This document shows positions 5,415-52,042 of a stretch of DNA of 64,000 nucleotides, in pieces. Both the position numbers and the translations under genes were made by a program. The notes under the pieces are model-generated. The model searched no databases, was not told the DNA's origin, and worked only from the letters and a program-made list of their open reading frames with translations. The DNA is from Paraburkholderia agricolaris (lineage in GTDB: Bacteria > Pseudomonadota > Gammaproteobacteria > Burkholderiales > Burkholderiaceae), in assembly GCF_009455635.1 (NCBI RefSeq), contig NZ_QPER01000002.1, positions 496,001 to 560,000 of the forward strand, given 5' to 3'. Every line of letters begins with the position of its first letter. The first letter of the stretch is position 1.

Positions 5415-7529
5415 ATGGTCACCAAAACGCGCCGAGATTTTCTGAAGCTGTCCGCCGGACTGGCGGGCGCGACAGCCGCCACTACCCTGTTTCCCGAATC
5501 GATTCGCAAAGCGCTCGCAATCGAGCCGGCTTCGGTGACGGGGACGATTCAGGACGTGCAGCACATTGTTGTCTTCATGCAGGAGAACCGCTCGTTCGAT
5601 CACTATCTCGGTCACCTGAGCGGCGTGCGCGGGTATAACGACCGCTTTCCCGTGACGCTGCCGAATGGCCAGCCGGCGTGGTTCCAACCGCGTCAGGAGG
5701 ATCAGACGAAGGTGATCGCGCCGTTCCGCTACGACACGACCAATCCGAACGTCAACGCGCAATGTATCGGCGGCCTGCCGCATACGTGGGCCACCACGCA
5801 CGGTGCGATCGACAGCGGCCGCGCCGACAAATGGGCTGTGCAGAAGAGCAATATGACGATGGGCTATCACGTGCGTGAGGACATTCCGTTCCATTACGCG
5901 CTCGCGGATGCCTTCACCGTGTGCGACAACTACTTCTGTTCGATCCCTGGCAACACACACCCGAACCGCATGTATCTGATGACGGGGATGGTCGACCCGC
6001 TCGCCACCGGTGGCGGCCCGCTGCTCGACAACACCGATTTCATCGACAACCAGTTCGACACGATCAAGCTGCAGCCCTTCAACTGGACCACCTATCCCGA
6101 GCGGCTCGAGACGGCCGGCATCTCGTGGCAGATCTACCAGCAAGGTACCGGCTTCGACAATTTCAGCGGCAACTACGGCACGAACATGCTGGCCTCGTTC
6201 CAGAACTTCGTGAATGCACCGGCGGGGTCGTCGCTGCAGAATCGCGGCATGAGTACACGCACGTTGACGCAGTTGAAGGCCGACGTACAGGCTAATGCGC
6301 TGCCGCAAGTGTCATGGCTGCTGCCGCCCGCTGCGTATTCGGAACATCCGAAATTCACACCGCTCTACGGCGCCAATTACATCTCGACGATTCTCGATGC
6401 GCTGACATCGAACCCCGATGTGTGGAGCAAGACGGTTCTGTTCATCATGTATGACGAGAACGACGGTTTCTTCGATCACGTGGTGCCGCCGCAAGCACCC
6501 ACGTTGCCGGGTTCGGGTATGAGTACCGTGGACATCTCGCTCGAACGGCATAGCGTTGTGACCGCGACGCAAGCCGGCACTTATACCGCCGACAATCTGC
6601 CGTACGGTCTCGGTCCGCGCGTGCCGATGACCGTGGTGTCGCCGTGGTCGAAAGGTGGTTTCGTCTGCTCGCAGGTATTCGATCACACGTCGGTGCTGCA
6701 ATTCATCGAGAAGCGTTTCGGCGTGATCGAAACCAACATCTCGCCATGGCGCCGTGCGATTTGCGGCGACCTGTCTTCGGCGCTCGACTTCTCGAAGTCC
6801 GACGCTACCGTGCCGTCGCTGCCGAGTACCCAAACCTACGTTGCACAGGCCGATTTGCAATGCGCGCGCGCCACGGCGCAGGCCGCGCCGGCCAGTACCG
6901 CGCAGCAGCTGGTAACGGCGCAGGAGCCCGGCACGCGGCCCGCGCGTGCGTTGCCGTACGAGCTGCATGTGAACGGCCAGGTGCAGTCGCAAGGCTATGC
7001 GCTGACGTTCGCGAACACCGGTAAGCAGGGCGCGCATTTCTGGGTGTACACGGGTGATCCGACCGCGATGCCGCGTCGCTACACCGTCGAAGCCGGCAAG
7101 CAATTGTCCGATACGTGGGCGTTCGACACGAATGGCAATTACATGGTGAACGTCTACGGCCCGAACGGATACTTCCGGCGCTTCGCGGGTTCGTCGACCG
7201 CGGATGCAGCCGCAAAGCCGGATGTCGTGACCTGCTACGACGTGGCCAACGGCAACGTCTATGTCACGCTGTCCAACGCGGGGAGCACCCCGCTCACGGT
7301 CACCGCGGCCGACGTCGCCTATGGTCAGGCGCCGCTCACGGTGACGGTGCCGGCGGGCAAGAGTGTGGAAGCGCATTGGGACCTGTCCTGCAGCAGCCAG
7401 TGGTATGACTTTCAATTGACTGTTGCGGGCAATCCAGGCTGGTTGAGGCGCATTGCGGGTCACGTCGAAACGGGGCAAATCAGCGTTACGGATCCGGCTG
7501 CCACTGCGCCGGTAACGAAGCCGATTTAA
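5415..7529 (+). CDS. plcN: Phosphocholine-specific phospholipase C, Tat-exported
   Basis: A 704-residue enzyme of the PlcH/PlcN family that hydrolyses phosphatidylcholine or sphingomyelin to diacylglycerol or ceramide plus phosphocholine. The N-terminus carries a twin-arginine signal (TRRDFLKLSAG), as in the known enzymes. The catalytic core shows the family motifs HIVVFMQENRSFDHYLGH (from residue 50), FCSIPGNTHPNRMYLMTG, and IMYDENDGFFDHVVPP. The C-terminus has two repeated beta domains of about 90 residues each, as usual for this family (for example YELHVNGQVQSQGYALTFANTG). Length is typical. The gene follows a small lipoprotein gene by 27 bp. Substrate preference (plcN versus plcH type) cannot be read from sequence, so the symbol is provisional. 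Confidence 0.92.
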   Translation: MVTKTRRDFLKLSAGLAGATAATTLFPESIRKALAIEPASVTGTIQDVQHIVVFMQENRSFDHYLGHLSGVRGYNDRFPVTLPNGQPAWFQPRQEDQTKVIAPFRYDTTNPNVNAQCIGGLPHTWATTHGAIDSGRADKWAVQKSNMTMGYHVREDIPFHYALADAFTVCDNYFCSIPGNTHPNRMYLMTGMVDPLATGGGPLLDNTDFIDNQFDTIKLQPFNWTTYPERLETAGISWQIYQQGTGFDNFSGNYGTNMLASFQNFVNAPAGSSLQNRGMSTRTLTQLKADVQANALPQVSWLLPPAAYSEHPKFTPLYGANYISTILDALTSNPDVWSKTVLFIMYDENDGFFDHVVPPQAPTLPGSGMSTVDISLERHSVVTATQAGTYTADNLPYGLGPRVPMTVVSPWSKGGFVCSQVFDHTSVLQFIEKRFGVIETNISPWRRAICGDLSSALDFSKSDATVPSLPSTQTYVAQADLQCARATAQAAPASTAQQLVTAQEPGTRPARALPYELHVNGQVQSQGYALTFANTGKQGAHFWVYTGDPTAMPRRYTVEAGKQLSDTWAFDTNGNYMVNVYGPNGYFRRFAGSSTADAAAKPDVVTCYDVANGNVYVTLSNAGSTPLTVTAADVAYGQAPLTVTVPAGKSVEAHWDLSCSSQWYDFQLTVAGNPGWLRRIAGHVETGQISVTDPAATAPVTKPI

Positions 7530-33265: not shown

Positions 33266-34882
33266 ATGGCACCGAATCCACTCCGCAATCCCCAGTTTGC
33301 CACCACGCTCGCGCACGGCCTCGCGTTATTGAACTGCTTCAAGGTGGGCGACGCAATTCTCAGCAACAAGGACTTTGCCGAGCGCACGGGCCTGTCGAAA
33401 GCCACGGTGTCGCGGCTCACGTATACGCTCGCCGTGCTCGGCTTTCTGCGCTATGACAACAGCGCACGCAAATATCGGCTGGGCTCGGCGGCGGTGTCGG
33501 TCGGCTATCCGTTTCTGCAGGGCCTGCGGATCCGCGAACTGGCGCGGCCGCTGATGCGGGAGCTTGCCGATGTGGCGCGCGGTTCGGTGTCGCTCGGAAT
33601 CCGCGATCGCTCGCACATGGTGTATGTCGAGACTGCACGCGGTCATGAATCGCCGGCGTTTCGTCCGGATACCGGTGCTTCGCTGCCCATACTTGCCTCC
33701 GCGATGGGCCGGGCGTGGCTGGGCCGCGCCGAGCCCGCACAACGCGCTCTCGTGCTCGAGCAGGTTCGCACCCGGGACCCCGCGCAGTGGGACGCATATC
33801 ACGCCGGGTTGAAGGGCGCGCTGCGCACGTTCGGTAAGTGTGGCCTCGCGCTGGGCGAAGGCGATTTCGAGCCTGAAATCCATGCGGTCGCCGTACCGTT
33901 GCGCGAATCGATCGATTCAGAAACTTTCGTCTTCAATTGCGGCGTGCCGCGGGTGCAACTGACCGGCAGGATGCTTGTCGACGAGATCGCGCCGCGTCTG
34001 GCGGCGATGGTGGAAACGGTCGAACGCCAGCTCGCCTTGCAGCCTGCCGCCGACGACGAAGCGCGACCCTCGCCGGGTCCATTTCCCGGGCGGCCGACCA
34101 TGGATTCGTTTCCCGACGACGACGACCGTCAATTCGCTTTCACGCTCGCGCGCGGTCTGGAAATTCTGCGCTGCTTCCGGCCCGGCGAAGCGGCACTCGG
34201 CAACAAGGATTTTGTCGAGCGGACGGGTTTGTCGAAGGCCACGGTGTCGAGGCTTGCCTACACCTTGACCGAGCTCGGCTACCTGCGCCATGACCAGGTG
34301 GCGCGCAACTATCGGCTCGGCGGCGGTGTGCTGTCGATGGGCTATCCGCTGCTGGCCGGCATGCGCATCCGGCAGATCGCGCGGCCGTTCATGCGCGAGC
34401 TTGCGTTGCAGATTCGCGGGTCGGTGTCGCTTGGCATGCGGGATCAGTCGAATATGGTCTACATCGAATGCTGTCCGGGCGACGAGCGAATTCTTGCCCG
34501 GCCCGACGTCGGCGCGGTGCGTCCGATTCTGCGGATGGCGATGGGCCGGGCGTGGCTGGCGGCGGTGACGCCGCAGGAGCGTGAAGTGGCGCTGAACCGG
34601 CTACGCGTCGCCGTGCCTGAGCAATGGCAACTTTATGGGGCGCAGGTGCAGCAGGCGCTGCGCGACTACCGTGAAGCCGGCGTGTGCTTTTCGTACGGCG
34701 ATATGCAGAAGAACGCGTACGGCGTCGCTGCGCCGTTGTGCGCGCAGGTGGACGCTGAGACGCTGGTGTTCAACTGCGCGGTGCCGGCACAGTCGGCGCA
34801 GGGACGTCGTTTGATCGACGATATCGCGCCACGGCTCATGGCGATGGTCGCGAACGTCGAAATTGCGGCCGGCTTGCGCTAG
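33266..34882 (+). CDS. Tandem double IclR-type regulator
   Basis: A 538-residue protein in which a complete IclR regulator occurs twice in one open frame. The first winged helix is at residues 34-61 (NKDFAERTGLSKATVSRLTY) and its effector domain follows to about 255. After a Pro/Asp/Glu linker the second copy starts near 279, with its helix at 313-340 (NKDFVERTGLSKATVSRLAY) and effector domain to the end. Typical IclR proteins have about 260 residues, so this is a fused duplication with no frameshift or stop between halves. The two recognition helices are nearly identical, so a single chain could bind both halves of a dyad. It probably controls the flanking operons through the shared 35-bp site. 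Confidence 0.9.
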   Translation: MAPNPLRNPQFATTLAHGLALLNCFKVGDAILSNKDFAERTGLSKATVSRLTYTLAVLGFLRYDNSARKYRLGSAAVSVGYPFLQGLRIRELARPLMRELADVARGSVSLGIRDRSHMVYVETARGHESPAFRPDTGASLPILASAMGRAWLGRAEPAQRALVLEQVRTRDPAQWDAYHAGLKGALRTFGKCGLALGEGDFEPEIHAVAVPLRESIDSETFVFNCGVPRVQLTGRMLVDEIAPRLAAMVETVERQLALQPAADDEARPSPGPFPGRPTMDSFPDDDDRQFAFTLARGLEILRCFRPGEAALGNKDFVERTGLSKATVSRLAYTLTELGYLRHDQVARNYRLGGGVLSMGYPLLAGMRIRQIARPFMRELALQIRGSVSLGMRDQSNMVYIECCPGDERILARPDVGAVRPILRMAMGRAWLAAVTPQEREVALNRLRVAVPEQWQLYGAQVQQALRDYREAGVCFSYGDMQKNAYGVAAPLCAQVDAETLVFNCAVPAQSAQGRRLIDDIAPRLMAMVANVEIAAGLR

Positions 34883-37692: not shown

Positions 37693-37743
37693 CGATCGGC
37701 GCTTTCCGTTGTTTATGCCTGGTGAGTCATTCGCAGACTAACC

Positions 37744-37772
37744 TTGAGTTTCCTATACTGGCACGCTAAATT
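37744..37772 (+). promoter_or_regulatory. Candidate sigma-70 promoter of the SPFH-ATPase operon
   Basis: TTGAGT (37744-37749) and TAAATT (37767-37772) stand 17 bp apart, about 80 bp upstream of the first gene. This is a plausible -35/-10 pair. Confidence 0.45.
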
Positions 37773-37851: not shown

Positions 37852-39765
37852 ATGTCGGATCGGCATGCCGACGAAGAAAGCGATCTGGGCGAGCTATCGT
37901 CCGGACGTGGCGAAGCTTCGTTGACGGGATGGGTGGCCCTGGGACTTGCGGGCCTGCTCGGCATCCTGAGCCTTTTGAAAACCCTACCCGTCGATCTGCG
38001 CTGGAGCGCGGTTCTGGCGAGCGCGTGCCTGAACGTGTTCGTTGTCACGATATGGCCGTCGTCGTGGGCACGCACGCCGCGTGATCCGGCACAGGAATCG
38101 GGCTGGAAGCAGGGCGTAAGTTTCATCCGGCGACTGCTTTGGCAAGACGCCGAGGCGCCGCCCTTGCGTCTCGCCATCAGCGCTTTCCACTGGCAGCGGT
38201 GGGGCGTGGTCATTGGCAACTGTCTGTCCGTGGCGCTCGCCGCGATTGCCTTGCAACCCCTGCCGCCCGCCGCGCTCATTCACGCGATGGTGTCGTCGTC
38301 CTTCGTGATCGTTAGCGGCGCCGCTGCGCTGACGCTGGCCTTTCTCACACTCGTCGCCGAACGGTTCTACGCACAGGATGCGGAGCAATCCCATGCTGCG
38401 CTGTCGGCGTCGCTCGCCGGCATGCTGCGCGTCCTGGTGGTGTGCGCGCTCGCTGCGGCGCTGTCGGCGGCGTGGCTTGTCTACCTGCACACGGCGCTCG
38501 ATTGGCTGGTGCATGTCGCGGCGGTGTTCACGGCTGCGATTGCCGTCGAAATGATGATCCGCGCCACGCTTCTGTGGTTCTTCGCACCGCGCCCCGGCAG
38601 AAACGCGGCGCGAATCCCGTCGAGCCTCATCGCGGGAATGTTGCGCTATCGCCGCTCATCGCTCTCGTCGATCGGCGCCGAGTTGCACGACCGCTACGGT
38701 ATCGATCTGCGTCAGAACTGGGTGCTGCGCAGTTTTGTACGGCTGTTGCCGGTCACCGTCGTGGCGATGGTGGCCTGTGCGTGGCTATTGACCTCCGTCG
38801 TCGTGCTAGGCCCGTCCCAGCGCGCGGTCTACGAACGGTTCGGTGCGCCGGTAGCGGTTTGGCCGCCGGGCCTTCACTTCGGTATGCCCTGGCCGTTCGG
38901 CAAGGCTCGCCTCGTCGACAACGGCGCGGTGCATCAGATCATCGTGTCGGGCGGCGCCGACGACAGCAGCGTCGCGGCGCCATCCACGCCCGCCGACGGC
39001 CCGACGTCCGAGCAGATGAATCGTCTCTGGGACGTCCCGCATCCCTGGGACACGAGCCAGGTGATCGCGGGCGCCACCGGCGAGCAGCAGAGCTTCCAGA
39101 TCGTCAACGCCGACGTGCGGCTCGACTACCGCGAGGGTTTGAGCGACGCGGCGGCGCGCGCGGCACTCTATCGGTCGGTCGATCCGGAGAGCACGGTGCG
39201 CTCGATCGCCAATCGCGAGGCGGTGCATTACCTCGCGTCGCATACGCTGCAGGCGTTGCTCGAGACGAGCCAGACCGCCATGGCCGAGAGCGTGCGCCGC
39301 GCGGTTCAGCGGCAACTCGACCAGCTATCGAGCGGCATCGAAGTGGTGGCCGTGGTGATCGAAAGCGTGCATCCTCCCACGGGGGCGGCCGCGGCTTACC
39401 ACGACGTGCAGGCCGCGCAGATTCGCGCGCAGGCGAGCGTTGCCGAAGCGCACGGTTTTGCGGCGGGATTGCTTGGCAATGCGCAGCAACAGGCCCAGGC
39501 AAGCGTCACCCAGGCGAGCGCGCGGGCAGCCGACACGATGGCGGCGGCGCGCGTGCAGCAGATCGACTTCGAAGCCGACACGGTGGCCTACCGGCTCGGC
39601 GGCCCGGCTTTCCCCTTCGAGTACTACCTGAGCAAGTTGCAGAAAGGCTTGCAGAACGCGCGCATCACGGTGATCGACGACCGGCTGAGCGCCGACGGCC
39701 GGGCAACCATCGACCTGCGCTCGTTCAGCGCGGCCGATCTCACCGGCATTGCTCATGGCAATTGA
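37852..39765 (+). CDS. HflK-like SPFH protein with extra polytopic membrane domain
   Basis: A 637-residue protein. The first 310 residues contain about six hydrophobic helices (for example GWVALGLAGLLGILSLL, VVIGNCLSVALAAIALQPL, LRVLVVCALAAALSAAWLVYL), not found in classical HflK of about 420 residues. A further membrane segment (VVAMVACAWLLTSVVVLG) leads into the SPFH/band-7 domain (PSQRAVYERFGAPVAVWPPGLHFG), then a coiled coil (about 500-560) and a C-terminal strand (RITVIDDRLSADGRATIDLR). SPFH proteins form large membrane cages that organise proteases or ion pumps. AAGGA precedes ATG 37852. It is the first of four genes ending with a P1B ATPase. Confidence 0.85.
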   Translation: MSDRHADEESDLGELSSGRGEASLTGWVALGLAGLLGILSLLKTLPVDLRWSAVLASACLNVFVVTIWPSSWARTPRDPAQESGWKQGVSFIRRLLWQDAEAPPLRLAISAFHWQRWGVVIGNCLSVALAAIALQPLPPAALIHAMVSSSFVIVSGAAALTLAFLTLVAERFYAQDAEQSHAALSASLAGMLRVLVVCALAAALSAAWLVYLHTALDWLVHVAAVFTAAIAVEMMIRATLLWFFAPRPGRNAARIPSSLIAGMLRYRRSSLSSIGAELHDRYGIDLRQNWVLRSFVRLLPVTVVAMVACAWLLTSVVVLGPSQRAVYERFGAPVAVWPPGLHFGMPWPFGKARLVDNGAVHQIIVSGGADDSSVAAPSTPADGPTSEQMNRLWDVPHPWDTSQVIAGATGEQQSFQIVNADVRLDYREGLSDAAARAALYRSVDPESTVRSIANREAVHYLASHTLQALLETSQTAMAESVRRAVQRQLDQLSSGIEVVAVVIESVHPPTGAAAAYHDVQAAQIRAQASVAEAHGFAAGLLGNAQQQAQASVTQASARAADTMAAARVQQIDFEADTVAYRLGGPAFPFEYYLSKLQKGLQNARITVIDDRLSADGRATIDLRSFSAADLTGIAHGN

Positions 39766-39873
39766 CGTCCGGGCCCGTCGTACACGTGTGGCACATGAGT
39801 CGTACGAGCGCTGTACAGGCATTCCGCAGAGAAGCACGCCCAATGTCGGCGAAGCTGTTTTTAAGGTGACGAT

Positions 39874-40947
39874 ATGAGTTTGTTCCATTCGCATGCGGAA
39901 GGCCACGATCACGGGCACGGTCATGGACATCACCATCATCATCACGATGGCGGCGATGCGCAGGCCGCGCGTGGCGGCCCGTTCTATGGCCGGGTGCTGC
40001 TTGCGTTGCTCTGCGTGGCCGTGGCGTTCGCGGTGGCGAGTTTCATCTCCGTGCGCGCGGGCGAAGCCTCGGTGATCACGCGGTTTGGCCAACCCGTGCG
40101 CGTCCTGCTCGAACCGGGCCTTGCGTGGCGTCTGCCTGCGCCGATCGAAGCGGTGGTGCCGGTCGACCTGCGTCTGCATACGACCTCGAGCGGCTTGCAG
40201 GACGTCGGTACGCGAGACGGCTTGCGGATCATCGTGCAGGCGTATGTGGCGTGGCGCGTCGCGGCGGACCCGAACGACGTGCGCCGTTTCGTCCGGGCCG
40301 TGGGCAACCAGCCCGACGAAGCCGCGCAGCAAATCCGCTCGTTGCTGGGCTCGTCGTTGCAAACCACGTCGGCGGGATTCGACCTTGCGTCGCTGGTCAA
40401 CACGGACCCGTCCAAGGTCCGCATCTCAGCGTTTGAAGACGCATTGCGCGCCCAGATCGACGCGCAGCTGTACTCGGCTTATGGCGTGCATGTCGTGCAG
40501 GTGGGACTGGAGCGCCTGACGCTGCCGGCCGTGACGCTCGCGGCCACGGTCAGCCGGATGAGCGCCGAGCGCGAGACGGTCGCCGCTCAGCGCACGGCCG
40601 ATGGCAACCGCGAGGCCGCGCAGATCCGCTCGGATGCGGATCGCGATGCCCGGCTTGCCGTTGCCGATGCGAATGTGAAAGCGGCGCAGATCGAGGCGCA
40701 GTCCCGCAAGGACGCTGCCGGGATCTATGGCGCCACCTATGCCGGCAATCCGCGGCTCTACACGATGCTGCGCTCGCTCGATACCCTCGACGCGGTGGTC
40801 GGCAGCAATACGAATCTGATTCTGCGCACCGATGCCGCGCCGTTCCAGGCTTTGGTGCAGGGTCCCACCGCACTCGGCCCCGAGTCGTTGCCGCAGGCCG
40901 GTGCCGGCGCAGCGTCCACGTCGAAAAAAATCAGGCCTGCGCGATGA
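39874..40947 (+). CDS. HflC-like SPFH protein with histidine-rich N-terminus
   Basis: A 357-residue SPFH protein. Residues 5-24 contain 12 histidines, including six in a row, a likely metal-binding tail on the cytoplasmic side. One membrane segment (VLLALLCVAVAFAVASFISV, about 42-61) is followed by the SPFH domain (GEASVITRFGQPVRVLLEPGLAWRLPAPIEAVVPVDLRL), coiled coil (about 245-275) and LYTMLRSLDTLDAVV near the end, as in HflC. Classical HflC lacks the His tail. It follows the HflK-like gene by 108 bp and overlaps the next gene by ATGA. It is part of the four-gene unit with the metal ATPase. Confidence 0.88.
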   Translation: MSLFHSHAEGHDHGHGHGHHHHHHDGGDAQAARGGPFYGRVLLALLCVAVAFAVASFISVRAGEASVITRFGQPVRVLLEPGLAWRLPAPIEAVVPVDLRLHTTSSGLQDVGTRDGLRIIVQAYVAWRVAADPNDVRRFVRAVGNQPDEAAQQIRSLLGSSLQTTSAGFDLASLVNTDPSKVRISAFEDALRAQIDAQLYSAYGVHVVQVGLERLTLPAVTLAATVSRMSAERETVAAQRTADGNREAAQIRSDADRDARLAVADANVKAAQIEAQSRKDAAGIYGATYAGNPRLYTMLRSLDTLDAVVGSNTNLILRTDAAPFQALVQGPTALGPESLPQAGAGAASTSKKIRPAR

Positions 40948-42113
40948 GCACGGACGCCGACTTGCCGCCGCTCGGCCCGGGCGCCCAGGCGGTACGGCTC
41001 TCGTTCTGGTTTGTCGCCGCGCTGGTCGTGCTCGCCGCCTGCGCATGGGCCGGCTCGAACATCCGGCGGATTCCGCCGGATAGCCGCGCCGTCGTGTTGC
41101 GGTTCGGCTCGTTCGTGCGCACCCAGGACGCGGGATTGTTGATTGCCTGGCCACGCCCGTTCGAGTTGACCTTGCTGGTGCCCGGCAGCGCGCGGGTTCT
41201 GGAGCAACGCATCCAGTCGCTCGAACGTGATCCGCGTGCGCGTGCTGCGGATATGGCGGTGCGGGAAGCTGCGCCATCGGCGCAAGCACCCGCCGGAACC
41301 GGGGCCGTGATCGGGCCGGACGATGGCCCGCCCAACCCACCGGTCACGCCGGACAACGCAGGAGGCCCCGACGCAACGCCGCCCGTTGCGCAATTGCCCG
41401 ATGCGTTAGCCGGCTCCGGTTACGTGCTCACCGGCGACAACGGCGTGTTGCAGTTGCGCGCCACGTTGTACTACCGGGTTGTCGATCCCTATGCCTATGT
41501 CCTGCAACAAGACCGGCTCGCCGCGGCGCTCGAGCGGATCGTGTCCGCCTCGGCGGTCGATGTCGTGGCGCAGCGCGATCTGGATGCGATTCTTGTCGCG
41601 CGTCCCGAGTTGCTGTCGGCGGATCAGCAGGTCGCGATAAAGCGCGAGCGTTTGCGCGGCGATCTCGCGCAGGAAATCGAACGCCACTTGCGCCAGCTCG
41701 AAGCGCAGCATGCGGGACTCGGCGTGGAAGTCGCGCGTGTCGATGTCGAAGTGGCGTTTCCGGCTGCCGCCGTCGGCGCGTTCAATTCGGTGCTGACCTC
41801 ATTGCAGGTGGCCGAGCGCAGCATGGCCGAGGCCCGCACGTCCGCTGAAAAGACCCGCCAGGATGCGCAACAGGATGCCGACCGGATCGTGCAGAATGCT
41901 GAGGCGAGCGCCGTTGAACGTGTCGCTACCGCGCAGGCTAAAACCATGACCATTCAGCAACTGGAAGTACCGCTTCGCACCAACAGCGATCCCGGGCTTC
42001 TCGCACGCGTGTATCGGGACCGCGTTCAGTCGGTGCTCTCGAAAGCGGGCAGCGTGACGACCGTCGGACCGCACGACACATCGAATCTGATCCTGCCTGG
42101 AAATGCGCGATGA
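40944..42113 (+). CDS. Second HflK-like SPFH protein
   Basis: A 389-residue SPFH protein with one membrane segment (LSFWFVAALVVLAACAWAGSNI, about 19-40), then the SPFH domain (IPPDSRAVVLRFGSFVRTQDAGLLIAWPRPFE). An acidic Pro/Gly/Ala-rich insertion at about 105-150 interrupts the domain, and a coiled coil follows (AERSMAEARTSAEKTRQDAQQDADRIVQNAEA). The final helix resembles HflK (LLARVYRDRVQSVLSKAGSV). Both ends overlap neighbours by ATGA (40944 and 42110). With the preceding two proteins it could form a hetero-oligomeric cage around the ATPase. Confidence 0.85.
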   Translation: MSTDADLPPLGPGAQAVRLSFWFVAALVVLAACAWAGSNIRRIPPDSRAVVLRFGSFVRTQDAGLLIAWPRPFELTLLVPGSARVLEQRIQSLERDPRARAADMAVREAAPSAQAPAGTGAVIGPDDGPPNPPVTPDNAGGPDATPPVAQLPDALAGSGYVLTGDNGVLQLRATLYYRVVDPYAYVLQQDRLAAALERIVSASAVDVVAQRDLDAILVARPELLSADQQVAIKRERLRGDLAQEIERHLRQLEAQHAGLGVEVARVDVEVAFPAAAVGAFNSVLTSLQVAERSMAEARTSAEKTRQDAQQDADRIVQNAEASAVERVATAQAKTMTIQQLEVPLRTNSDPGLLARVYRDRVQSVLSKAGSVTTVGPHDTSNLILPGNAR

Positions 42114-44098
42114 GCACCGGAGTCGAGCACACCACGCACACAGGCGAGCACGCCCACGCTCACTCGCACGGCTCGCACGCCGACGAAGCGAACGGCATCG
42201 CCCAGGGGCGCGCGATTGTTTTATCGGCAGCCGAGCAACGCGGCGTGACGCGGCAAGTCGCGCTTGCATTGCTGGCCGGCGCACTGCTGATTCTGTCGAC
42301 GGCATGGCACTACTTCGACCCGGCGGATGAAGCGCTTGCGCAGGTCCTCGCGGGCCTCGCTTCGCTGGTGGTTGCCGGGCCGGTGTTCGCCGGCGCGTGG
42401 CACAGCCTGAAGTCTCCGAGTCTGCACGGGGTGACGGACCGCCTGATCGCGCTCGCCATGCTGGCGGCATGGGCGGTGGGCGACATGGCGACGGCCGCGT
42501 TGTTGCCGATCGTCATGACCTTCGGACATGCACTCGAAGAGCGCAGCGTGCTCGGTTCGCAGGAGGCGATCCGGGCGCTCGGCAGGCTGACCTCGGGCAA
42601 GGTGCGGCGCGTGAAAGCCGATGGCTCGATCGAAGAAGTGCAGTACGACGCGGTGCGGGCGGGCGACCACATCGAAGTCGTCGCCGGTGCGCGAATTCCT
42701 GCCGACGGTGTGGTTCAGCATGGCGATTCCAGTGTCGACAACGGGCCGATTACCGGCGAGTCGGTGCCGCTCGACGTCGAGCCGGGCTCGACCGTATTCG
42801 GCGGCGCGATGAATCTCGACGGCCCATTGCGTATCGAAGTCACGCATGCGGGCAAGCAGTCGACGCTCGGCAGAATCATCGAGTTGATGCAGCGCGCCGA
42901 ACAGGCCAAGCCGCCGATTACGCAGATACTCGAACGCTACATGGGCGGCTATTTGTGCCTCGTTCTGTTGATCGCGGCGATCGTCTGGTTCGTCTCGGCG
43001 AATGCATCGGCGATGCTGGCCGTGATTGTCGCGGCGTGTCCGTGCGCGCTGGTGCTCGCTGCGCCGTCGACGGCCATTGCCGGCATTGCAGTCGGCGCGC
43101 GTCATGGCATCCTGTTCAGAAGCGCCGCGTTTCTCGACAAGTTTGCACAGATCGATTCGCTGGTGATCGACAAGACCGGCACCTTGACCTACGGCGAATT
43201 GCGGGTCGAAGACGTGCTGCTGGCGCCTGGTGCCGACGCGGCGCAGGTACTCGAACTCGCGGCGCGGCTTGGCGGCAGCAGTGCGCATCCGGTGAGCCGC
43301 GCGCTGCTGCACTACGCGACAGAAACCGGAGGCGCCGGATTCGAACGGGAGCCGTTCGAACACGCACGTGAACTACGCGGCTTGGGCGTTCTCGCGGAGA
43401 CGCCGCAAGGCGTCGCGGTACTGGGCCGCTTCGGCTTGCTCGCGCAGTACGTGCAGGCTTTGCAGGAACCGCGCCGCGAGATCGAAGGGCCTTGCGTCGG
43501 TCTTGCGTTGAACGGCCGATTGCTCGCGTGGTTCGGCTTTGCCGACGCACTGCGTGCGGAAGCCGGGGACGCGCTGGCCGAGTTGCGGGAACTCGGCTTG
43601 ACGCGACAAACGCTGTTGACCGGAGATCGCGAGCCGGTGGCGCGCAAACTGGCGGCGCAAACCGGGATTGCCATTGTGGTCGCGCAGGCGCTGCCGCACG
43701 ACAAACTCGACTACGTGGTGCAGGAAATGGCGGCGGGCTATCACCCGCTAGTCGTGGGCGACGGCCTGAACGACGTGCTCGCCATCAAGGCCGGCCCTAC
43801 CAGCATTGCGATGGGCGAGCGAGGCATCGACATTGCGGTAGCCTCGGCCGACGTCGTGCTGCTTGGCGACGACTTGCGCCGTATCCCGACCTGTGTGCGC
43901 CTCGGGCGGCGCTGCCTGCACACCGCGGCGGTCAATGCCGCGATCGGATTGGCGTGGACGGTCGCCGTGATCGCACTGGCCGCGACGGGCGTGCTCAGCG
44001 CCGTGTGGGTTGCGCTTTTGCATAACCTGGGGACCTTCATCGTGATCGCGAATGCGGGCCGGCTGCTGCGAATGGACGAGGAGGGTATCCAGCCGTAA
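42110..44098 (+). CDS. P1B-type heavy-metal ATPase
   Basis: A 662-residue cation-transporting P-type ATPase. Motifs: TGES (215-218), CPC (310-312) in the metal-binding membrane helix, DKTGT (354-358, phosphorylated Asp354), the P1B-specific His-Pro (393-394) and GDGLND (550-555). There is no N-terminal HMA domain; instead residues 7-23 carry seven histidines. Eight hydrophobic helices are visible. The last one contains HNLGT where Zn pumps have a DxG motif, Cu pumps MxxSS and Co pumps HEGxT, so metal selectivity cannot be assigned. It ends a four-gene operon with three SPFH proteins, which probably control or scaffold it. Confidence 0.9.
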   Translation: MSTGVEHTTHTGEHAHAHSHGSHADEANGIAQGRAIVLSAAEQRGVTRQVALALLAGALLILSTAWHYFDPADEALAQVLAGLASLVVAGPVFAGAWHSLKSPSLHGVTDRLIALAMLAAWAVGDMATAALLPIVMTFGHALEERSVLGSQEAIRALGRLTSGKVRRVKADGSIEEVQYDAVRAGDHIEVVAGARIPADGVVQHGDSSVDNGPITGESVPLDVEPGSTVFGGAMNLDGPLRIEVTHAGKQSTLGRIIELMQRAEQAKPPITQILERYMGGYLCLVLLIAAIVWFVSANASAMLAVIVAACPCALVLAAPSTAIAGIAVGARHGILFRSAAFLDKFAQIDSLVIDKTGTLTYGELRVEDVLLAPGADAAQVLELAARLGGSSAHPVSRALLHYATETGGAGFEREPFEHARELRGLGVLAETPQGVAVLGRFGLLAQYVQALQEPRREIEGPCVGLALNGRLLAWFGFADALRAEAGDALAELRELGLTRQTLLTGDREPVARKLAAQTGIAIVVAQALPHDKLDYVVQEMAAGYHPLVVGDGLNDVLAIKAGPTSIAMGERGIDIAVASADVVLLGDDLRRIPTCVRLGRRCLHTAAVNAAIGLAWTVAVIALAATGVLSAVWVALLHNLGTFIVIANAGRLLRMDEEGIQP

Positions 44099-44163: not shown

Positions 44164-44733
44164 ATGCAGCAGGCGAAAAATAAAATGACGCTAATCGACG
44201 AGTTTTTGCCTCGCTACGATTTCCGCGAGCGGCACACCGCGCTCATCAGCGCACCGGCGGACATCATTCTGGATTGCGCCGCTCGTCAACGGGCGCAGGA
44301 TGACCCGCTGATACGACTGGCGATTCGCCTGCGCGAACTGCCGTCGCGACTCATGCAACGCTCGCAGAGACCGCCACTGGATCTCGACGATTTCACGTTT
44401 CTGGGCCGCGATGGAGACCGTGGCCTGGCGTTCGGGCTGATCGGCGCCTTCTGGCAGGCGGACTACGGCCTGCTCGACATCGACTCGCCCGAAGCGTTCA
44501 AGGCAACCGTCAGAACAGATGTCTGCCAGCTTGTCATGGACTTCAATGTCGATGCCACCGCGTCAGGCGCGTCCATGCTGAGTACGGAGACGCGCGTGTT
44601 TTGTCCCAGCTCGGCAGTTCGCCGCCGATTCGCGCCTTACTGGTTCGTCATCCGTCCTGTCAGTGGGCTTATCCGGCAGCGTACGCTCGCCAGGATTCGG
44701 CGAGAGGCCGAAAGCCTTGTCGCAGGAAAATGA
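44164..44733 (+). CDS. Conserved hypothetical protein, possible SRPBCC-like fold
   Basis: A 189-residue protein. It starts with LIDEFLPRYDFRERHTALISAPADIILDCAAR and ends with RRRFAPYWFVIRPVSGLIRQRTLARIRREAE, a pattern seen in Actinobacteria and Burkholderia hypothetical proteins that resemble polyketide-cyclase (START/SRPBCC) ligand-binding domains. I cannot name a family with certainty. The start ATG 44164 has GGGA seven bases upstream; ATG 44185 is an alternative. It lies 65 bp after the metal ATPase gene and convergent to a flavoprotein gene, with 12 bp between the stops. Confidence 0.6.
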   Translation: MQQAKNKMTLIDEFLPRYDFRERHTALISAPADIILDCAARQRAQDDPLIRLAIRLRELPSRLMQRSQRPPLDLDDFTFLGRDGDRGLAFGLIGAFWQADYGLLDIDSPEAFKATVRTDVCQLVMDFNVDATASGASMLSTETRVFCPSSAVRRRFAPYWFVIRPVSGLIRQRTLARIRREAESLVAGK

Positions 44734-47873: not shown

Positions 47874-48347
47874 TTATTCGTCGCGAATCCGTAGCGGCAG
47901 CGCAGTTTTATATTCGACGCGACGAAGCGCGACGGATGTGTGAATGTCGCGTACGCCGTCAACCTTCGTGAGTCTGGTCATGACGAAGCGCTCGATGCCG
48001 GCAATGTCGGCCGCGACCACCCGGAGCATGTAGTCGAAAGCACCGGTCATCAGGTAGCACTCCATCACTTCATCCAGGTTCGCAATCGCGCGCTCGAACG
48101 CCGCGAGCCGCGCCTCGCTCTTCTTCTCGATTGCCACGGACACGTACGCATTGACGGGAAACCCCGCCTTCTCCTGATCCAGCAGCGTCACGTACTGGTT
48201 GATGACGCCGGCCTCTTCAAGCATCCGGATACGCCGGTAAAACGGCGACAGCGAAAGACCCAGCGACTCCGCGAGGTCGGCGGCTTTCGTATGGGCGTCG
48301 AGCTGCAATGCGCGCAGGATGGCCACGTCGGTACGGTCAAACTTCAT
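47874..48347 (-). CDS. Lrp/AsnC family transcriptional regulator
   Basis: A 157-residue regulator of typical length. The N-terminal helix-turn-helix is FDRTDVAILRALQLDAHTKAADLAESLGLSLSPFYRRIRMLEEAGVI, and the C-terminal RAM domain (VNAYVSVAIEKKSEARLAAFERAI to the end) binds amino acids. It is divergent from the indolepyruvate oxidoreductase gene, separated by 143 bp with a 6-bp inverted repeat (GCGATT and AATCGC, 48401-48432). It very likely controls that gene in response to an amino acid or its keto acid. Confidence 0.9.
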   Translation of the reverse strand: MKFDRTDVAILRALQLDAHTKAADLAESLGLSLSPFYRRIRMLEEAGVINQYVTLLDQEKAGFPVNAYVSVAIEKKSEARLAAFERAIANLDEVMECYLMTGAFDYMLRVVAADIAGIERFVMTRLTKVDGVRDIHTSVALRRVEYKTALPLRIRDE

Positions 48348-48400
48348 TGGCTAATTTTCCCTTAAAACGGCTGAAAATCGGCGCGACTTGCCAATTTCAA

Positions 48401-48432
48401 GCGATTGTGGGACTCAGTTTGGCACGAATCGC
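48401..48432. promoter_or_regulatory. Inverted repeat in the Lrp/indolepyruvate oxidoreductase promoter
   Basis: GCGATT (48401-48406) and AATCGC (48427-48432) are perfect complements 20 bp apart. The site lies between divergent genes and could be an Lrp-family binding site. Chance occurrence cannot be excluded. Confidence 0.4.
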
Positions 48433-48490
48433 CTCTATCGGCTACCTAAAATGGCTCGCATGCCACCCCTACAGGCAGAGGAGACAAACA

Positions 48491-51400
48491 ATGAATATGC
48501 GAGCAGTGGAGCTGGGGCGTCCGATCGACATGGACTACGGTCTTGAGGACCGCTACGTCAGAGAGAACGGAACCGTTTTCCTGACGGGCACCCAGGCGTT
48601 GGTGCGAATTCTGGTTGAACAGGCTCGCAGCGATCGCGCCGCGGGCATCCGGACAGGCGGTCTGGTGTCGGGCTACCGCGGCTCGCCGCTCGGCGGCTTC
48701 GACCAGGAACTGTGGCGTCAGAAGAAACTGCTCGCGGACCACGCGATCCGCTTTGAACCCGGCTTGAATGAGGACCTGGGCGCCACCATGCTGTGGGGCG
48801 CGCAACAGGTCGACGCCTTTCCCGGCAAGCGTGTCGAAGGCGTTTTCTCGATGTGGTACGGGAAGGGCCCGGGCGTCGACCGAACTGGAGATGTGTTCCG
48901 CAACGCGAACATTGTGGGCACGTCGAGGCAAGGCGGCGTGCTCGCCGTTGCGGGTGACGACCACGCGGCACAGTCGTCGATGTTCCCGCACCAGACGGAC
49001 CATGTCTTCGAAGGCGCGATGATGCCGATTCTGTTTCCGGCGTCGGTTGAGGAATATATCGAGTTTGGTCTGGCGGGTTACGCGATGTCGCGTTTCTCCG
49101 GCCTGTGGGTCGCTTTCAAGGCCATCACCGAAACCGTGGAAAGCGGCCGTTCGATGACCGTGCAGGCGCACGACGCCGGCGCGGCGCCTCGTTTCAGATT
49201 GCCGGCCGACATCCACGTACCGGAAGGGCGCGGCTTCAACTACGACCCGAATCTTCGCTGGCCGGCCGAACGCAGCGAACTCGAACGACGCATACTCGAT
49301 GAGCGTTTGCCCGCCGCCCTCGCTTTCATGCGTGCCAACCCGCTCGATCGCACGCTCGTACGGCCGCGCGGCGCACGGGTCGGTATCGTCACGGTGGGTA
49401 AGGCGCACGGTGACGTGCTGGCGGCATTCGCGGCCCTTGGGCTGTCGGCGCAGGAGCTTGAGCGCCTCGGCATCGGCGTCTACAAGATCGGCATGATCTG
49501 GCCGCTGGAGACCGAAGGCGTCCGCGCCTTTGCGCGCGGCATGCAGGCGCTGGTCGTGGTCGAAGAGAAGCGCTCCTTTGTCGAGCGTCAGATCAAGGAA
49601 GCGCTGTTCAATCTGCGGCCGGACGAACGTCCCGCTGTGTTCGGCAAGGACCTGGGCGAAGCCGGGCCGCTGCTGCCCGCCGCGATGGAGTTCGCACCGG
49701 ACCAGATCGCGGCCGCGCTGAAACGGTTTTTTGCCCATACCCAGGTCGAACTCAAGGTATCCGTGCCGCCTGCTCCGCTCGTCGCGCCGGTTCAACGCAA
49801 TGGCTCGCGCGTGATTGCGCTCGCGGCGGCCGGCAAAGATGCGCAGCCGCTGAGCCGTAAGCCGTTTTTCTGCGCCGGCTGTCCGCACAATACGTCGACT
49901 CGATTGCCGGATGGTTCGTACGCTGCGGCCGGCATTGGTTGCCACATCATGGCCTTGGGCGAAGCGGGCGACACGGCGACGTTCTGTCAGATGGGCGGCG
50001 AGGGCGTGCAATGGATCGGCATGTCGACGTTCATGGATCTCCCGCACATGTTCGTCAACCTGGGAGACGGCACCTATCAGCACTCGGGAAGTCTTGCGAT
50101 TCGCCAGTCGGTCGCGGCGAAATCCAACGTCACGTACAAGATTCTCTTTAACGACGCGGTTGCGATGACCGGAGGCCAGCCCGCCGAAGGCAGCCTGACT
50201 GTTCAGCGCGTGGTGGCCCAGGTGGTCGCCGAGGGTGTTGCCAAAGTGGTGGTCGTTTCCGACGAGCCCGAAAAGTACGCCGGTTCCCTGCGTCTGCCCG
50301 CGAACGTCGACATCCAGCATCGCGACGACCTCGACGCACTCCAGCGTACGCTGCGTGCGGCCAAAGGCGTCTCGGTCATCGTGTACGACCAGACCTGCGC
50401 GGCCGAGAAGCGCCGGCGCCGCAAACGCGGCAAGCTGATCGACCCGCCCCGGCGCGTGGTGATCAATCCGGCGGTTTGCGAAGGCTGCGGCGATTGCTCG
50501 GTGCAGTCGAATTGCATTGCGATCGAACCGCTCGAAACGGAGCTCGGCCGCAAACGTGCCGTCAATCAGTCGAGTTGCAACAAGGACACGTCGTGCCTCA
50601 AAGGGTTCTGCCCGAGCTTCGTTACGGTTGAAGGGCTGCAACCCAAACAGCCGGATCAGAAGCGGATTGGCGCGATTGAGGCCGAATGGCGCGCGAAACT
50701 GCCTGCGCCGGCGGCTGTGCCGGCCGATCTGGACGCGCACGCCAGCATTGTCGTCACCGGTATCGGCGGCACGGGCGTGGTCACGATCGGTGCGATTCTC
50801 GCGATGGCCGCGCATCTGGAAGGTAAAGGCGCCTCGACCCTGGATTTCACGGGTCTCGCGCAAAAGAACGGTGCCGTGATCAGCCATGTGCAGATTGCGA
50901 GCAGCCGCGCGCAAATCGTGACGTCACGCATCGGCGCGCACGCCGCGAATGTTCTGCTTGGCTGCGACGCGGTGGTCGCGGCGTCAGCGGGTGCGCTCTC
51001 GCGGGTCGCTTCGGGCGTGACGCGGGCCGTTGTGAACGAACGGATTACGCCCACCTCGGACTTTGTGCGCGATGGCGATCTGCCCGTGAGCAAGGCCATT
51101 CACCAGCGTGCGATCGAAGGCGCGCTCGGGTCGGGCTCATCCGCGTTCTGGGATGGTTCGGGCGCTGCCGAGATTCTGTTCGGCGACGCGATTGCGTCGA
51201 ACATGATGATGGTTGGGTATGCGTATCAACGAGGCTTGATTCCGCTTTCGGAAACGGCCATTTTGCGGGCTATCGAACTGAACGGCACGGCCGTGAAGAT
51301 GAACGGGCGCGCGTTCTTCTGGGGCCGCTTGCTGGCTCACGACGCGAGTGTGATCGAGCGGGTTTCCGGCACGGTTGCGGCAGCGTCGGGCGAGTTTGAA

Positions 51401-52042
51401 CTGGAGCGTTTCGTGGCCGACCGCGTGCGCGATCTGGAGCATTATCAGAACGCTGCCTATGGCCGCCGCTATATGGCGCTTGTCGAGCGGGTGCAGCAGG
51501 CCGAGCAGCGTATTGCCGGGGCCGCCGGTGAACTTACCGAAGTGGCGGCGCGCAACTATTTCAAGGTGCTCGCGTACAAGGACGAGTATGAAGTCGCGCG
51601 TCTGCATACCGACGGCAGCTTCCATTCGTACCTGTCCAGCGCTTTCGATGGCGGCGGCAAGAAGACCTTCTACATGGCGCCGCCGCTTTTGACGCGTCGC
51701 GATCCTCGTACCGGCCGCAGAACCAAGATTGCCCTTCGCGCGGCGTGGCTCGATCCGCTGTTGCGCGTGATGAAGCACGGCAAGGTCTTGCGCGGTACCG
51801 CCTTCGATCCGTTTGGCCGCCAGAAGGATCGTGTCATCGAACGTGCGTTGATCGGTGAGTTCGAGGAAGACGTCGAACTCGCGCTTCAACGGCTCACCCC
51901 GCAAACGATCGAATCGGCGCTGGCCTTGTTGCGGGTGCCGTCGTCGATTCGCGGCTTTGGCGTGATCAAGGAACGCAACTATGAAAACGCCCGGCCCGTG
52001 CGTGAGCAGTATCGCGCGATGTTGCAGACGAGCGGCCGGTAA
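48491..52042 (+). CDS. Indolepyruvate ferredoxin oxidoreductase, fused subunits
   Basis: A 1183-residue single-chain 2-oxoacid:acceptor oxidoreductase in which the alpha, ferredoxin-like and gamma (Rossmann) parts of IorAB are fused. Order: pyrimidine-binding and TPP domains (GYRGSPLGGFDQEL near 55, and GMPHNTSTR-type segment CAGCPHNTSTRLPDG near 460). Then a [4Fe-4S] cluster at residues 663-675 (C-x2-C-x2-C-x5-C) and further Cys in SSCNKDTSCLKGFCPSF. Next comes the gamma domain (TGIGGTGVVTIGAILAMAAHLEGK). It oxidatively decarboxylates aryl or branched 2-oxo acids to acyl-CoA. GAGGAGAC precedes ATG 48491. It is divergent from the Lrp gene. The length is typical of the fused proteobacterial type. 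Confidence 0.9.
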   Translation: MNMRAVELGRPIDMDYGLEDRYVRENGTVFLTGTQALVRILVEQARSDRAAGIRTGGLVSGYRGSPLGGFDQELWRQKKLLADHAIRFEPGLNEDLGATMLWGAQQVDAFPGKRVEGVFSMWYGKGPGVDRTGDVFRNANIVGTSRQGGVLAVAGDDHAAQSSMFPHQTDHVFEGAMMPILFPASVEEYIEFGLAGYAMSRFSGLWVAFKAITETVESGRSMTVQAHDAGAAPRFRLPADIHVPEGRGFNYDPNLRWPAERSELERRILDERLPAALAFMRANPLDRTLVRPRGARVGIVTVGKAHGDVLAAFAALGLSAQELERLGIGVYKIGMIWPLETEGVRAFARGMQALVVVEEKRSFVERQIKEALFNLRPDERPAVFGKDLGEAGPLLPAAMEFAPDQIAAALKRFFAHTQVELKVSVPPAPLVAPVQRNGSRVIALAAAGKDAQPLSRKPFFCAGCPHNTSTRLPDGSYAAAGIGCHIMALGEAGDTATFCQMGGEGVQWIGMSTFMDLPHMFVNLGDGTYQHSGSLAIRQSVAAKSNVTYKILFNDAVAMTGGQPAEGSLTVQRVVAQVVAEGVAKVVVVSDEPEKYAGSLRLPANVDIQHRDDLDALQRTLRAAKGVSVIVYDQTCAAEKRRRRKRGKLIDPPRRVVINPAVCEGCGDCSVQSNCIAIEPLETELGRKRAVNQSSCNKDTSCLKGFCPSFVTVEGLQPKQPDQKRIGAIEAEWRAKLPAPAAVPADLDAHASIVVTGIGGTGVVTIGAILAMAAHLEGKGASTLDFTGLAQKNGAVISHVQIASSRAQIVTSRIGAHAANVLLGCDAVVAASAGALSRVASGVTRAVVNERITPTSDFVRDGDLPVSKAIHQRAIEGALGSGSSAFWDGSGAAEILFGDAIASNMMMVGYAYQRGLIPLSETAILRAIELNGTAVKMNGRAFFWGRLLAHDASVIERVSGTVAAASGEFELERFVADRVRDLEHYQNAAYGRRYMALVERVQQAEQRIAGAAGELTEVAARNYFKVLAYKDEYEVARLHTDGSFHSYLSSAFDGGGKKTFYMAPPLLTRRDPRTGRRTKIALRAAWLDPLLRVMKHGKVLRGTAFDPFGRQKDRVIERALIGEFEEDVELALQRLTPQTIESALALLRVPSSIRGFGVIKERNYENARPVREQYRAMLQTSGR

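Follow-up and report, generated by a model that had tools for sequence, protein, structure and literature searches.

The window, a 64,000-nucleotide stretch of the Paraburkholderia agricolaris genome, carries a four-gene operon that probably encodes an HmtA-type metal transport module, which pairs a P1B ATPase with a three-subunit HflK/C-type scaffold of its own. The SPFH cages described so far mostly surround FtsH or have no assigned purpose. An SPFH scaffold dedicated to the metal pump fits the sequence data well, since the gene order is kept, the genes co-occur exactly, and SPFH2 carries a His-rich tail. By analogy, the metal is most likely zinc and possibly copper, and the direction of transport is most likely uptake, because the Pseudomonas aeruginosa orthologue is reported to be a Zn/Cu importer and Zur-type palindromes are found in many relatives. 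The features of the operon are collected in Table 1.

Table 1. Features of the SPFH-ATPase operon, numbered from the first letter of the window.
Feature	Position	Strand	Description
sigma70-like promoter	37744..37772	+	TTGAGT (37744-37749), 17-nt spacer, TAAATT (37767-37772)
SPFH1	37852..39765	+	HflK-like, 637 aa; N-terminal 6-TM domain, seventh TM helix, SPFH domain
SPFH1 N-terminal 6-TM domain (residues 1-252)	37852..38607	+	predicted CDF-like fold
SPFH1 SPFH domain	38803..39456	+	five invariant His: 342, 361, 397, 507, 517
SPFH2	39874..40947	+	HflC-like, 357 aa
SPFH2 His-rich N-terminal tail	39874..39972	+	33 residues ahead of TM helix, 12 His
SPFH3	40944..42113	+	HflK-like, 389 aa; ATGA overlap with both SPFH2 and ATPase
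ATPase	42110..44098	+	HmtA-type P1B ATPase, 662 aa
ATPase His-rich N-terminal tail	42110..42238	+	43 residues, 7 His
ATPase Cys-Pro-Cys metal motif (C310-P311-C312)	43037..43045	+	both Cys invariant, 34/34 sequences
ATPase His-Asn (H638-N639), last TM helix	44021..44026	+	at the place of ZntA Asp714; H638 in 34/34

The first-pass annotation had described an operon of three SPFH scaffold proteins and a P1B ATPase, which is confirmed by four successive same-strand ORFs at 37852-44098. Pfam searches find Band_7 in SPFH1, SPFH2 and SPFH3, and E1-E2_ATPase with a HAD hydrolase in the ATPase. The best NCBIfam profiles of the three SPFH proteins are HflK, HflC and HflK, respectively, and the earlier labelling of two HflK-like proteins and one HflC-like protein is therefore right, though all three fall below the equivalog cut-offs (63 of 159.4 bits for SPFH1, 108.1 of 134.4 for SPFH2, 89.8 of 159.4 for SPFH3); by Pfam and hydrophobic segments each has a TM helix ahead of the SPFH domain, as membership in HflK/HflC requires. 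The proposed ATGA coupling holds at two of three junctions, SPFH2/SPFH3 (40944-40947) and SPFH3/ATPase (42110-42113), but not at SPFH1/SPFH2, where the genes are separated by 108 nt; the scan lists no terminator-like site in this gap. ORF5 (44164-44733, 189 aa) was considered as a fifth gene of the module and rejected, being present only in the window and locus L009 among one set of loci; it matches no Pfam or NCBIfam family.

The order SPFH1-SPFH2-SPFH3-ATPase is seen in 36/36 distinct loci read, the window included, which span alpha-, beta- and gammaproteobacteria and were chosen by a strong SPFH1 or SPFH2 match (5 of 10 plasmid records were fetched); conservation of the four-gene order in other species, which the first-pass annotation had put forward as a check, is borne out, and the recurrence appears to be more than chance. 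In a search of 398 genomes, SPFH1, SPFH2 and the ATPase each had strong matches in one identical set of 11 and, at the thresholds used, never apart from one another; SPFH1 matches of any strength occur in 86 genomes, and the analysis continued with the 11 strong ones, the weaker 75 starting at E 4.6e-19. The distribution is patchy (16/249 family genomes). Gene trees of the 32 loci present in all four alignments have 19-22 of 29 splits in common, against at most 2 in 200 random ATPase-versus-SPFH2 relabellings, and distance correlations among the module proteins are 0.865-0.904 for the same loci; by this sequence evidence SPFH1, SPFH2 and the ATPase are co-inherited. Invariance counts leave out L063 (a duplicate of L012), L014 for SPFH1 (broken frame), L052 for SPFH2 (split frame), and L048 and L049 for the ATPase (mis-set start); some proteins entering the invariance and distance analyses are short at the N-terminus, and the N-terminal columns of SPFH2 were excluded from judgement.

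SPFH1 has seven hydrophobic segments and a Band_7 domain at residues 318-535 (Pfam). Its 6-TM domain, modelled by AlphaFold (pLDDT 81.0, pTM 0.75), has a predicted fold resembling that of CDF metal transporters, with the metal site missing; among Foldseek's 1000 best chains, the top 16 rows of the VIA-align comparison are all CDF/SLC30 metal transporters. Both SPFH1 models were built on 58 Burkholderiaceae-type sequences, and one fold search used a model of pLDDT 64.9. The Asp/His metal site of CDF/SLC30 proteins lies in TM2 and TM5, and no conserved Asp/His is present in TM2 or TM5 among the 12 SPFH1 sequences shown. PF01545 is absent among the 8 Pfam families matched by the 58 SPFH1 members at E 0.1 (weak single-member matches, e.g. 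PF07332 and PF02517, were set aside), and hhalign of the domain against a CDF set (16 of 30 fetched loci) gives a probability of 0.4%. SPFH1 is rejected as a member of the CDF family, the fit being one of predicted fold alone; unlike YiiP, ZnT1, ZnT3 and ZnT7, it has neither the TM2/TM5 Asp/His nor a profile match. The histidines of the SPFH domain are invariant in 35/35 sequences and make up, by raw count, five of 103 conserved columns. No conserved His or Cys was found in canonical HflK from the same genomes, a control in which the sequences were trimmed to the local match (266-480 aa) and thus have fewer conserved columns.

SPFH2 is the slowest-evolving of the four proteins, with a median pairwise identity of 72% (32 loci). 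Its tail holds at least 7 His in 35/36 loci and that of the ATPase at least 4 His in 21/36, with 0/36 loci reaching 4 His in the tails of SPFH1 and SPFH3; every one of the 36 loci has a His tail on SPFH2, the ATPase or both. Judged by their composition, these tails are likely metal ligands.

The ATPase scores above the cut-offs of TIGR01525 (476 bits) and the cadmium family TIGR01512 (441 bits), and shares 59% identity with P. aeruginosa P0263 across 630 aligned positions; P0263 is probably PA2435 (HmtA), given its 83% identity to an ATPase lying behind three SPFH genes. It carries the marks of HmtA membership, namely a His-rich N-terminal tail, the CPC motif and an HN pair in the last TM helix; H638-N639 was placed by aligning the P. 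aeruginosa orthologue with 4umv and then with the window ATPase, and alignment rows L056, L059 and L060 were ignored for their wrong reading frames. Rows L001, L006 and L007 of a separate comparison are probably misframed as well. The P1B-2 zinc exporter ZntA (4umv) has in common with the window ATPase the CPC motif, DKTGT and a P1B assignment by sequence; however, it differs from the HmtA type in its ion path, where alignment of the P. aeruginosa orthologue replaces Asp714 by His, Lys693 by Thr and Glu202 by Thr, and the window ATPase differs further in its His-rich N-terminal tail. The P1B-2 marks, an Asp in M8 (Asp714 of ZntA) and a Lys in M7 (Lys693), are thus lacking, with His and Thr in their place.

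The first-pass annotation knew of no described function for this combination, a statement that has to be withdrawn: P. aeruginosa PA2434-PA2439 holds HmtA, reported as a Zn/Cu importer, beside three Hfl-type genes (paFlo5-paFlo7 in PA14), and the locus is up in zinc depletion. Three SPFH genes ahead of the ATPase, the mark of the HmtA locus, are found in the window and the other 35 loci; PA2434 and PA2436, however, have no counterpart identified in the window analysis. The original paper reports that Zur shifts the PA2439 promoter in a gel assay, which conflicts with a review stating that all zinc-uptake promoters are bound by Zur with the exception of hmtA. Zinc is reported not to repress hmtA mRNA, and import by HmtA, reported for Zn and Cu in P. 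aeruginosa alone, is based on overexpression and according to the review needs confirmation. Deletion of paFlo5-7 in PA14 is described as giving mild phenotypes only, in passages that contain no zinc test. The published work, in the passages available, handles the pump and the SPFH proteins separately; since hmtA, P-type and ATPase are absent from the main text of the PA14 SPFH knock-out study, two separate literatures could be joined. What is new here is the exact co-occurrence, the kept order, the His tails, the invariant histidines of SPFH1 and the predicted CDF-like domain.

We infer that the three SPFH proteins form a joint inner-membrane assembly, their SPFH domains lying in the periplasm, into which HflK/C are described as reaching, and that this assembly would hold or enclose the ATPase. 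The scaffold itself would handle metal: the His-rich N-terminal tails, present on SPFH2 and often on the ATPase, would then lie on the cytoplasmic side of the membrane and accept or buffer the pumped ions, and the invariant histidines of SPFH1 may serve as periplasmic metal ligands. A more speculative and distinctly less assured version is a metal vault, an SPFH assembly with an ion pump rather than a protease as client; the cage might collect zinc or copper and pass it on, with SPFH1 (and its inactive CDF-like module) touching the pump and binding metal through its invariant histidines, and the SPFH2 tails ringing the cytoplasmic mouth. SPFH-NfeD and stomatin assemblies likewise tie an SPFH scaffold to membrane proteins (by its title, entry 9zd2 is stomatin with aquaporin-1), whereas the operon neighbour in the window is a P-type ATPase.

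It is unlikely that the SPFH trio serve instead as additional HflK/C-type modulators of FtsH, a zinc protease, under zinc shortage, with the pump merely co-transcribed in the same response. Two P. aeruginosa papers do interpret the trio as partners or modulators of FtsH, all three window proteins match HflK/HflC profiles best, and two FtsH-type genes occur in the window genome; these genes are, however, remote (C1:1100068 and C2:2668096, with the operon at C2:534k), and none is near the operon. The operon is not the canonical chromosomal hflK-hflC locus, as a canonical-type pair is retained at C1:1613668-1615341, and a separate HflK match occurs in 25/25 further genomes, counted irrespective of neighbours. 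The HflK/HflC cage around FtsH, for which PMC12048511 names a contact between HflK Arg191 and FtsH, has two subunits, whereas the window module has three, at a separate locus and below the HflK/HflC cut-offs, and adds to them a 6-TM domain, a His tail and a pump gene in the operon; zinc starvation alone would leave the SPFH2 His tail and the exact co-occurrence with the ATPase unexplained.

The ATPase could also be an exporter that loads metal into a periplasmic SPFH-dome chamber, either to detoxify it or to supply periplasmic proteins with it, which is rather improbable. Exported metal would arrive in the periplasm, where HflK/C extend, P-type metal ATPases are described as usually being exporters, and the cadmium-family score would fit; against this, the orthologue is reported as an importer, induction by zinc shortage is reported elsewhere, and the ZntA residues Asp714, Lys693 and Glu202 are all replaced, although this is weak evidence on direction. 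Far less credible still is co-transcription only, with the SPFH proteins as general membrane-lipid organisers without a specific link to the pump; such a general role is proposed for SPFH proteins in the abstract of PMC13086221, yet at the thresholds used none of the 398 genomes has SPFH1, SPFH2 or the ATPase without the other two, and the co-inherited genes encode tails with likely metal ligands. A pump-dedicated scaffold, bearing His-rich tails and tied to a single metal pump throughout the searched genomes, would give SPFH cages a defined client and allow a clean test of them; it may also help to settle whether HmtA-type P-type ATPases truly import metal, because the scaffold may be the missing part in pump-only assays.

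The sigma70-like promoter upstream of SPFH1 is present in 22/23 Burkholderiaceae loci (missing in L076) and in 0/13 others; a simple promoter scan flagged a different site, 37730-37759. TGGCACG-N5-TTGC in the promoter was rejected as a sigma54 site, because its spacing deviates by one base from the sigma54 consensus and relatives do not conserve the GG. No Zur-type palindrome was found in the promoter of the window operon, and Zur control is rejected for this strain, in contrast to the hmtA locus with its zinc-depletion induction and Zur-shifted promoter; the sole TGATATAACRTATC site in the window genome (at most 1 mismatch) lies upstream of the likely znuA start. Zur-type palindromes are found in 14 of the other 35 loci, 11/13 non-Burkholderiaceae and 3/23 Burkholderiaceae, each locus being scored with whichever of eight consensus strings fitted best and compared with 100 simple base shuffles; in loci counted as Zur-type 0 to 4 shuffles reached the best score, and the palindromes of L054 and L082 are spelled differently. 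Where flanks were listed (17 loci, some of them scanned), a divergent TonB receptor adjoins two of the three Zur-type Burkholderiaceae loci.

Three SPFH-domain genes and a P1B ATPase gene form one predicted operon in the window, confirming the observation of the first-pass annotation; the ATGA coupling it described holds at the SPFH2/SPFH3 and SPFH3/ATPase junctions, however a gap of 108 nt separates SPFH1 from SPFH2. None of the three SPFH proteins reaches the NCBIfam equivalog cut-offs for HflK or HflC.

Features with coordinates in the window, the rest of its genome and related loci (L-numbers)
Feature	Location	Strand	Assignment
SPFH1, 637 aa	first gene of 37852-44098	+	HflK-like by NCBIfam rank
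SPFH2, 357 aa	second gene of 37852-44098	+	HflC-like by NCBIfam rank
SPFH3, 389 aa	third gene of 37852-44098	+	HflK-like by NCBIfam rank
P1B ATPase, 662 aa	fourth gene of 37852-44098	+	Heavy-metal P-type ATPase (NCBIfam)
Single 538-aa ORF	window 33266-34882		IclR HTH and IclR C-terminal domains, two matched stretches each
1244-aa protein	window 48308-52042		POR and DUF6537 domains
Phospholipase C-like gene	window 5415-7529		Phosphoesterase and bacterial phospholipase C C-terminal domains
SPFH1, P. elongata	L014 7938-9919		Broken frame; decay or sequencing error
SPFH2	L052 6714-7697		Split; decay or sequencing error
Region upstream of operon, Paraburkholderia sprentiae plasmid	L079 1-5325		Metal ABC transporter genes, PCu(A)C copper chaperone
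ZnuC-like ATPase (znu operon) and Zur-like repressor, window genome	L084 6088-7053 and L085 5703-6287		His-rich tails: long C-terminal (ZnuC-like), N-terminal (Zur-like)
Second FtsH-type gene, window genome	G000:C2:2668096-2668620 (L115)		Peptidase_M41, more divergent; stronger match on contig 1

Gene order and strand are the same in all 36 distinct loci, which comprise the window, 30 loci fetched with SPFH1 (31 less L063, a duplicate of L012) and five plasmid records read for gene order from ten matched with SPFH2; the order is thus conserved in other species. One gene is broken in each of two loci, SPFH1 in L014 and SPFH2 in L052, and about 600 nt separate SPFH3 from the ATPase in L047. Across 398 genomes of the phylum, strong matches to SPFH1 (E ≤1.2e-92; next-best match 4.6e-19) occur in 11, and these 11 are precisely the genomes with strong matches to SPFH2 (limit 1e-40) and to the ATPase (limit 1e-120). 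The distribution is patchy, as SPFH1 is present in 16/249 family genomes including that of the window; the close SPFH1 relatives in named genomes are all Paraburkholderia (6/6). The four protein trees (32 loci) have 19–22 of 29 splits in common, against at most two after random relabelling of the ATPase tree against the SPFH2 tree (n=200). Median identity is highest for SPFH2 (72%), the slowest of the four, followed by the ATPase (67%), SPFH3 (62%) and SPFH1 (50%). Plasmid-borne operons include those on Rhizobium plasmids and on the conjugative Klebsiella aerogenes plasmid pYD-K10_1 (L078), where a Tn3-family transposase lies near the module and SPFH2 is without its His tail.

The first-pass annotation was aware of no function described for the combination, however the operon matches the P. 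aeruginosa locus PA2434-PA2439, in which PA2437-PA2439 are reported as HflC/HflK-type proteins; loci of this type have been described before, with their function unexplained. The L047 ATPase, behind three SPFH genes, is 82–83% identical to P. aeruginosa proteins, one of which (P0263) shares 59% identity with the window ATPase; from these identities we infer that P0263 is HmtA. A znuA mutant reportedly shows 5.6- to 14.4-fold increases of PA2434, PA2435 and PA2437-PA2439, with PA2436 absent from the list, and PA2434-PA2439 has a weak predicted Zur site. Zinc depletion is stated to raise HmtA and PA2437-PA2439, significantly for PA2438 and PA2439 in the text of PMC11761036, and N-acetylcysteine raises PA2437-PA2439 (PMC9431628). 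PMC8531726 describes a zinc-dependent gel shift of the PA2439 promoter by Zur, and low hmtA mRNA that zinc did not repress; the former conflicts with a review that makes hmtA the exception among Zur-bound uptake promoters and also considers HmtA import to need confirmation (PMC10393844). The three SPFH genes have been deleted as paFlo5-7, with reduced biofilm and attenuation in Galleria; the main text of that report (PMC13086221) contains hmtA, P-type and ATPase zero times and zinc once, for FtsH.

Upstream of SPFH1, 11/13 non-Burkholderiaceae loci (L045-L054, L082; none in L078 or L081) and 3/23 Burkholderiaceae loci (L068, L069, L074) have a Zur-type palindrome; none is present in the window, thus zinc control is supported for the relatives and not for the window. 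A divergent TonB-dependent receptor adjoins the boxes in L068 and L074, and no intact receptor ORF is among those listed beside the L069 box; none of the receptors reaches an NCBIfam cut-off, and no zinc role is assigned to them. A promoter-like TTGAGT-N17-TA(A/C)ATT is common to 22/23 Burkholderiaceae loci. The window genome (8.72 Mb, two contigs) encodes a Zur-like protein that scores 129.2 bits against a cut-off of 167, and contains one exact TGATATAACRTATC site, upstream of the likely znuA start. Other zinc proteins of the strain also bear His-rich tails, as seen in the ZnuC-like ATPase and Zur-like repressor.

The SPFH trio may act as a scaffold for the operon's own pump, which is the simplest account of the exact co-occurrence, co-inheritance and His-rich tails; the cage interpretation of the first-pass annotation is partly supported. 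The main rival is modulation of FtsH by the trio. HflK/C is described in PMC12048511 as a large assembly around FtsH reaching into the periplasm. Neither of the two FtsH-type genes of the window genome is near the operon. A topology of seven TM helices with the N-terminus in the cytoplasm would place the SPFH domain of SPFH1 in the periplasm, and the SPFH2 His tail is predicted to be cytoplasmic. The published orthologue and zinc-starvation induction elsewhere favour a pump that imports zinc or copper; alternatively, it may export metal into a periplasmic chamber. No proposal of a joint machine of SPFH/Hfl proteins and a P-type ATPase was found in the portions of open-licence literature covered, and the metal-handling SPFH scaffold is proposed here.

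Elsewhere in the window, the doubled IclR domains of the 538-aa ORF suggest two IclR regulators fused in tandem, and the 1244-aa protein resembles an indolepyruvate-ferredoxin-oxidoreductase-type enzyme.
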